Shown here: positions 35,503-35,956 of the stretch, in pieces | How the letters are laid out: each line of letters opens with the position of its first letter | How positions within the stretch are numbered: the first letter of the stretch is position 1 | Assembly (NCBI GenBank): GCA_949288145.1 | Contig: CASEJD010000131.1 | Location: 1-48,378, forward strand | Direction of reading: 5' to 3' | Source: an uncultured Coriobacteriia bacterium | Lineage (GTDB): Bacteria > Actinomycetota > Coriobacteriia > Coriobacteriales > Eggerthellaceae | Length of the DNA: 48,378 nucleotides | The notes under the pieces: model-generated | Database searches by the model: none | Seen by the model: the letters and a program-made list of their open reading frames with translations, nothing else | Told to the model about the DNA's origin: nothing | Made by a program: the position numbers and the translations under genes

Positions 35503-35601
35503 AGAGCATGCAGCATGCCCTCTCGGGCAGTAACTTGCCTATCATAGCAAAAGAGATTCCGAATGTGCAGTTGTGAAGAACGAGTGTACGCGATGAGATT
35601 G

Positions 35602-35695
35602 GGTTCGAGTCCCCGACGCGCGCTGATCATCCTCTAGCAACAAAAAAGCCCCAATACTGGGGCTTCAATCTTTCATGGTGGACCGTCGGGGACTC
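35602..35695. repeat. Truncated tRNA-Lys duplication unit (copy 1)
   Basis: Plus-strand T-arm fragment GGTTCGAGTCCCCGACG (35602-35618), a terminator (35642-35665), then 35676-35695. The last segment is identical to the final 20 nt of the tRNA-Lys gene, CCA included, but is cut off there. The second copy (35803-35905) ends in the intact tRNA-Lys. Confidence 0.8.
35642..35665 (-). terminator. Intrinsic terminator in duplication copy 1
   Basis: AAGCCCC / GGGGCTT stem followed on the minus strand by TTTTTT. It would act as a second stop for tRNA-Lys transcripts. Confidence 0.8.
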
Positions 35696-35802
35696 CCGCG
35701 TCCGCTTTCGGCGGACGCTCGACCCCTCCCTCGCAGGCTCGGTCGGGCGAAATCCTAAAACATGCCCACTGGGCAGTTTTCTTAACGGATTTCCACCTCA
35801 TC

Positions 35803-35905
35803 GGTTCGAGTCCCCGACGTCGTGCTTGGAGAAATCACCCGAACACAAAAAAGCCCCTGAATCGGGGCTTCGATCTTTCATGGTGGACCGTCGGGGACTC
35901 GAACC
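35803..35905. repeat. Duplication unit copy 2, abutting intact tRNA-Lys
   Basis: GGTTCGAGTCCCCGACG (35803-35819) and its exact reverse complement (35889-35905, the tRNA-Lys T-arm) form 17-bp inverted arms around a terminator. The unit parallels copy 1 at 35602-35695, including a shared CTTTCATGGTGGACCG run. Confidence 0.8.
35847..35870 (-). terminator. Intrinsic terminator of the tRNA-His/tRNA-Lys operon
   Basis: AGCCCC / GGGGCT stem followed by TTTTTT on the minus strand, just after tRNA-Lys. Confidence 0.85.
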
Positions 35906-35956
35906 CCGGACCTTGGGATTAAGAGTCCCCTGCTCTACCAACTAAGCTAACGGTCC
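35881..35956 (-). tRNA. tRNA-Lys (anticodon CUU)
   Basis: Starts GGACCGT and ends ACGGTCCACCA. The anticodon loop CTCTTAA gives CUU, and the T-arm is GGGGTTCGAGTCCCC. 76 nt with CCA encoded. It is second in an operon with tRNA-His. Confidence 0.95.

Follow-up and report, generated by a model that had tools for sequence, protein, structure and literature searches.

The tRNA-Lys locus and its repeated 3' end

We analysed a stretch of 48,378 nt, here called the window, which is positions 1 to 48,378 of the forward strand of contig CASEJD010000131.1 (assembly GCA_949288145.1) from an uncultured Coriobacteriia bacterium of the Eggerthellaceae. Its minus strand carries the transfer RNA (tRNA) genes tRNA-His, tRNA-Lys(CTT) and, farther along, tRNA-Leu, and behind tRNA-Lys lies a short repeated structure that is one copy of a family of small units linked to tRNA genes. 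The parts of this locus are listed below with their coordinates in the window; the joint is the boundary between tRNA positions C56 and G57.

35881..35956, minus strand: tRNA-Lys(CTT), with C56 at 35901 and G57 at 35900
35696..35900, minus strand: complete unit of 205 bp (tRNA 57-76, trailer with terminator, antisense, core), homologous to a 189-bp insertion in genome G104 relative to G106
35850..35871, minus strand: terminator-like hairpin X1, in the unit's own trailer
35803..35819, minus strand: antisense of tRNA-Lys 52-68, splint-like across the C56/G57 joint, by complementarity only
35696..35802, minus strand: folded core of 107 nt with three hairpins (37 pairs, 27 with two-sided changes, in 36 copies)
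35676..35695, minus strand: putative displaced original tRNA-Lys 3' end, an exact repeat of 57-76
35645..35666, minus strand: terminator-like hairpin X2, in the second trailer
35601..35618, minus strand: second antisense T-arm piece with no core behind it, 17 nt (35602-35618) or 18 nt counting 35601

The last 20 nt of tRNA-Lys (57-76, including CCA) recur exactly at 35676-35695 of the minus strand and the 17-nt antisense T-arm sequence is present twice (35602-35618 and 35803-35819), as a sequence-only reading of this DNA had noticed; the two parallel hairpin terminators that it described, X1 and X2, are nearly identical, and the bounds that it drew, 35602-35956, enclose the structure. An exact 20-nt repeat together with two exact inverted copies of 17 nt in 300 bp is far beyond chance. 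Furthermore, 35640-35695 and 35845-35900 form a 56-nt direct repeat, 89% alike, with a period of 205 bp. The two trailers of the window are similar, so that the window alone could not separate insertion from duplication. The outer antisense piece (35601..35618) is likely the remnant of an older unit, and partial second units are also present at other loci.

Beyond what the sequence-only reading had seen, the intergenic stretch, used as query against 60 genomes, revealed that 35671-35814 is a dispersed repeat with repeated matches in relatives. The source genome holds at least two further copies of the element, behind tRNA-Gly(ccc) and tRNA-Ser(gct), and a shorter match behind tRNA-Leu(taa). 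Another dispersed repeat was seen behind a tRNA-Gly(ccc) unit (L036:1657-1818), with many matches in G000, G001 and G002.

Layout of the unit and position of the joint

Copies were parsed in fetched loci, many of which had been chosen through a match to the element or to the antisense pattern, by requiring an antisense match of at least 9 nt and a direct copy of at least 12/15 and by excluding convergent tRNAs. From 234 distinct tRNAs this gave 95 distinct copies in 56 genomes, almost all of them Coriobacteriia, behind 28 kinds of tRNA including transfer-messenger RNA (tmRNA). Where the antisense match was shorter (119 tRNAs), 16 also had a downstream copy. In the loci examined first, nearly every copy stood about 30-70 nt behind a tRNA gene of the same strand; among the copies for which ARAGORN found no tRNA, the one at L087 lies downstream of a confirmed tmRNA. 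A full copy runs in the order tRNA, trailer (usually with a terminator), antisense of the T arm, hairpin core, tRNA G57-CCA and trailer. Units measure about 160-205 bp with a core of about 110 nt, and truncated units are common. Most units are located behind the terminator of the tRNA, and in many copies, that of the window included, a second terminator follows the core. Two contigs of G001 end within units, L073 (G001:C107:1-900) and L072 (G001:C9:1-1200); the unit joined to a tRNA-Gly at L073 closes with the 3' end of tRNA-Lys, which is probably an assembly error.

Over the 95 copies, the agreement of the direct copy with the tRNA was 88-100% at positions 57-76 and 27% at position 56, and the complementarity of the antisense was 96-100% at tRNA 52-62, declining from 63. 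The edge of the copy at G57 and the antisense over 52-62 place the joint between C56 and G57, with 5 letters of the antisense on one side and at least 6 on the other. The T loop at the joint reads GGTTCGAA or GGTTCAAA. We considered that the antisense might merely pair with the downstream copy and rejected it, since the letters for 52-56 are complementary in the antisense yet missing from that copy and have their partner in the intact tRNA only. Behind tRNA-Ser(cga) of one genus (L114-L120) the antisense has a length of 16-25 nt and at its longest covers most of the acceptor strand, and the direct copy is decayed.

An antisense that covers both sides of a joint also recalls the internal guide sequence of group I introns, which gives the layout another possible meaning: an intron-like RNA spliced from or into the tRNA at C56/G57, with the antisense guiding both exon ends. 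The units do carry such complementarity to both ends (5 and at least 6 nt), as complementarity only, and spliced and unspliced forms would give an identical tRNA. However, no group I intron model appeared among 50 Rfam matches with expect values (E) up to 5 at 16 loci, the core has only about 110 nt, and a splicing element would not have to bring a tRNA 3' end, so we consider this explanation improbable.

The antisense is fitted to its own tRNA. Its mean match was 13.74 nt, compared to 9.55 nt when the tRNAs were permuted among the copies (10.24 nt at the top of 2000 permutations), and when set against the other unit-bearing tRNAs of the same genome its own tRNA was the better match in 47 of 54 cases, with 6 ties and 1 worse. 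Because copies had been selected on their antisense match, the evidence for this fit is the comparison of own with other tRNAs and not the length of the match itself. Rare T loops are also tracked closely, as in tRNA-Asp (L085), tmRNA (L087), tRNA-Gly(tcc) (L084) and the tRNA-Ala of G030 (L153, L154).

The folded core

The window copy folds at -75 kcal/mol, compared to -55.9 for shuffles (z -4.59), and three stretches from other copies gave z values of -4.47, -3.60 and -2.94. RNAalifold on alignment A1 returned 37 pairs, 27 of which have at least one two-sided change; the 36 aligned copies come from 41 tabulated loci, four without a located copy and one (L089) at the same place as L069, and second views of one place and a few truncated loci had been dropped before tabulation. 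With one column pair excepted, wobble pairs numbered 29 G-T against 7 A-C, an excess more in keeping with a folded strand of tRNA sense, whether RNA or single-stranded DNA, than with a symmetrical palindrome in DNA.

This fold could also belong to a small-RNA gene tied to the tRNA, with an RNA excised from the tRNA transcript and acting in the cell, whose antisense closes the fold or binds the tRNA and whose copies spread by local duplication and gene conversion rather than by a mobile mechanism. The covariation and the 29 to 7 ratio, both pointing to the tRNA-sense strand, and the second terminator beyond the core are in line with such a gene, and so is rtT of E. coli, a repeat of the tyrT operon whose annotation is that of an RNA released from the tyrT transcript by processing; in PMC4986893, RtT-family RNAs are detected on Northern blots of Actinobacillus. 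Against it stand the very patchy presence of units among congeners at the same tRNA, the foreign trailers and the common truncation, and the place of the unit behind the tRNA terminator in most copies makes its transcription uncertain. We therefore regard a small-RNA gene as possible but rather doubtful.

Sites with and without the unit

In G104 the T loop of tRNA-Lys holds a 189-bp insertion that is missing from its congener G106, with flanks that are 99% identical over the upstream 268 nt and 93% downstream. At the unoccupied sites of G106, G105, G103 and G102, GGTTC runs directly into GAGTCC...CCA and then the trailer; in G104 the unit supplies the 3' half of the tRNA, a trailer and a terminator. 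In G104 the trailer that follows the unit is similar to those of the four congeners, and closest to G106's, whereas the inner trailer had no match in these congeners or in any other of 137 family genomes (E 1e-8). The simplest reading of these alignments would be one insertion in G104. We also considered the inner trailer as a plain target-site duplication and dropped it, as the two trailers can be unrelated and the unoccupied site puts the joint inside the T loop.

Presence of the unit also varies at other tRNAs. Behind tRNA-Thr(cgt) of one genus, 6 of 10 retrieved loci have a unit, with visibly different cores, and 4 are without; among the 12 genomes in the genus of G125, several share with the query locus only tRNA and core segments, which lie at different places. 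tRNA-Lys loci without a unit mostly have no antisense downstream, with exceptions such as L028. Units in tandem were found at L172, L176, L178, L180 and other loci. At L173 (G277) three tRNA-Arg(acg) genes stand in about 750 bp with units behind two of them, and tRNA and units seem to have been amplified together.

Distribution and relatedness of the cores

Model R1 matched 73 of 246 genomes of the class, in 30 of 110 genera; an earlier search had matched 73 of 138 genomes, some through the tRNA 3' end alone, so that this figure does not count units. When one T-loop sequence was used to scan the phylum for a tRNA followed by antisense at 30-60 nt, 13 of 396 genomes had the pattern; with another, 42 of 242 genomes of the class did, and the reversed control pattern gave 0 matches in both scans; some of the pattern matches may be convergent tRNA pairs, and G234 looks so. 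Three loci outside Coriobacteriia, L135 (G364, tRNA-Ala), L123 (G651) and L134 (G606), have a tRNA with antisense behind it and a different, longer core; at L135 the downstream copy takes in the whole T arm, and the joint there may differ.

Within the window's family, cores at different tRNAs of one genome had a likeness of 0.724 (n=68); between genera it was 0.659 when the tRNA was the same (n=81) and 0.640 when the tRNAs differed (n=1304), one copy (G026) being without a genus label in this comparison. The nearest core was at a different tRNA in 43 of 57 copies. These values, a signal of moderate strength, suggest that cores pass, or undergo conversion, between tRNA loci.

Duplicated tRNA 3' ends and terminators are usual at the insertion sites of phages and integrative elements, and the sequence-only reading had taken the locus for the scar of such an insertion and excision, or of recombination between tRNA genes. 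Part of it held: the tRNA 3' end serves as an insertion site in so far as a congener offers an unoccupied one and the duplicated end is its trace, and 35601-35618 is itself likely a decayed remnant. What stands at the locus, though, is an intact structured unit and not the scar of an excision, and debris of rearranged tRNA genes is contradicted by the recurrence of the unit, unchanged in form, at numerous tRNA genes of the class, with the same core, bearing compensatory changes, in 73 of 246 genomes and fitted to each tRNA. The same reading had held that an arrangement conserved across a genus would speak against a scar; such conservation was largely found, although units come and go between species. 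The phage and plasmid collections had no match to the element. A scar is thus very unlikely. Two 18-mer matches in viral contigs were set aside as chance, neither stretch having a unit or a tRNA.

Searches for relatives of another kind were also negative. Apart from tRNA and tmRNA, the Rfam matches with E up to 5 at the 16 loci scored under the family cut-offs. No gene at L080, where two tRNA-Lys genes lie 2.6 kb apart, was taken for a recombinase, and in 16 longer stretches (one of 419 bp) examined for a larger element, copies of the tRNA 3' end occurred only at the spacing of short units, repeated tRNA genes aside. Judged by title and opening of the abstract, the open-access papers listed for the terms searched included none on such units in Coriobacteriia or on a class of T-loop insertions.

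A possible mechanism of insertion

From the layout, the joint, the fit to the local tRNA, the covariation, the sites with and without a unit and the tandem arrays, we think it somewhat probable that the copy in the window belongs to a family of miniature insertion units, which would go specifically into the T loop of tRNA and tmRNA genes and restore the gene they enter. A unit of about 160-205 bp would enter between C56 and G57, bringing along a tRNA 3' half of its own (57-76, CCA included) as well as a trailer and, in most cases, a terminator, by which the tRNA would stay whole, and leaving the displaced original 3' end and the resident trailer downstream. Read in this way, tRNA-Lys 57-76 (35881-35900) would have been brought along by the unit of the window. 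The antisense of tRNA 52-62 would span the joint like a splint and lead into a core of about 110 nt that folds. Each new unit would enter at one and the same joint and push older ones downstream, giving short tandem arrays, or alternatively arrays may grow and shrink by recombination between direct repeats. Pairing of the antisense with its target, as RNA or as folded single-stranded DNA, may guide the joining, which could be made by a recombinase encoded elsewhere or by an RNA-based step.

Several observations weigh against T-loop insertion. An exact deletion through the 25-bp direct repeats would yield identical unoccupied sites, and as deletion gives the same picture, we infer from parsimony that units were gained by insertion and not merely lost. 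In 51 of 95 copies the trailer that precedes the unit and the one that follows it are alike at 0.8 or more, as local duplication predicts; in 21 of 95 the agreement is below 0.6 (by chance the mean is 0.39 and the 95th percentile 0.67), and the two classes suggest that units both amplify locally and arrive with a foreign trailer. The core likeness within genomes (0.724 vs 0.659) is moderate and could be explained by gene conversion. Furthermore, the antisense at L185 matches the downstream copy rather than the tRNA now in place, that at L157 is an exact fit to neither, and no circle, enzyme or larger autonomous relative was found.

Comparison with rtT of E. coli and other known systems

The 178-bp rtT repeats of E. 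coli tyrT (RF00391) look like units of the same design. They stand behind tRNA-Tyr and run through a trailer, GGGGAAGGAT (antisense of 59-68), a core and AATCC...CCA, in tandem, so that repeats behind a tRNA, an antisense inside and a tRNA 3' end at the close are found in both. They differ in that the rtT antisense covers 59-68 only and its copy starts from A58, compared to 52-62 and G57 in the present units, and in that rtT was met here at tRNA-Tyr only and the present units behind 28 kinds of tRNA and tmRNA. E. coli also has sites with and without units: strain 7/2 carries five, and AH50 none, its tRNA-Tyr being followed by the sequence that comes after the last copy of 7/2. The rtT core was matched in 4695 of 5426 E. 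coli genomes, at a median of 3 places and a maximum of 14. PMC12584984 describes one strain that lost one tRNA-Tyr gene and RtT, and PMC2965389 traces rtT to Bosl and Kersten 1991, mentions a possible role in the stringent response and likens it to elements belonging to bacterial interspersed mosaic elements (BIMEs).

Kinship with rtT was detectable neither in sequence nor in covariance, and the resemblance appears to be one of design. The RF00391 model had no match in the window at gathering score and was found in neither of two genomes (the source genome and a congener), the E. coli control being positive. Conversely, model R1 scored rtT, in a stretch of 6.6 kb, with E values of 0.12-0.39, which did not surpass the matches to the tRNA-Tyr genes themselves. 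In the folding test the z of the E. coli rtT stretch, with the ends chosen here, was only -1.29.

Phages and integrative elements that target tRNA 3' ends resemble the units in inserting within the tRNA gene, restoring its 3' end and leaving the displaced end as a direct repeat, all of which we found. Unlike them, the units have 189-205 bp and no integrase or other gene, contain an antisense of their target and form tandem arrays. In integrons, cassette arrays are built at folded attC sites with a GTTRRRY core. The units share with them a short folded single-strand site, complementary ends and an ordered tandem array growing at a fixed site, but their target is the T loop of a tRNA, which does not contain GTTRRRY. 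Repetitive extragenic palindromic sequences (REPs) and BIMEs are likewise short, dispersed and hairpin-bearing; REPs are not known to be restricted to tRNA genes or to carry copies of them.

On a wider and more speculative view, which we put forward only tentatively, the unit may be a self-fitting mobile nucleic acid of about 190 nt, either RNA or single-stranded DNA in folded form, guided by its splint to the T loop, joining itself there at C56/G57, sparing the host by supplying a fresh tRNA 3' half, and refitting splint and tail to each kind of tRNA, with rtT as the first known, though unrecognised, member of a class spread across bacteria. What had been a curiosity of one E. coli operon is met here as a recurrent design, with 28 kinds of tRNA and tmRNA as its hosts and nearly all cases in Coriobacteriia. 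The layout offers a sharp, testable joint at C56/G57, which a fitted antisense spans. Should the antisense direct insertion, the unit would rank as a guided insertion element of very small size that encodes nothing itself; should it be the RNA that acts, a tRNA-linked RNA family unreported by Rfam searches of the window and 16 loci would be present in many Actinomycetota of the gut. The E. coli sites with and without a unit make the question accessible to experiment in laboratory strains.

Lastly, at 2182-2296 the window contains a match to the glycine riboswitch aptamer at gathering score.
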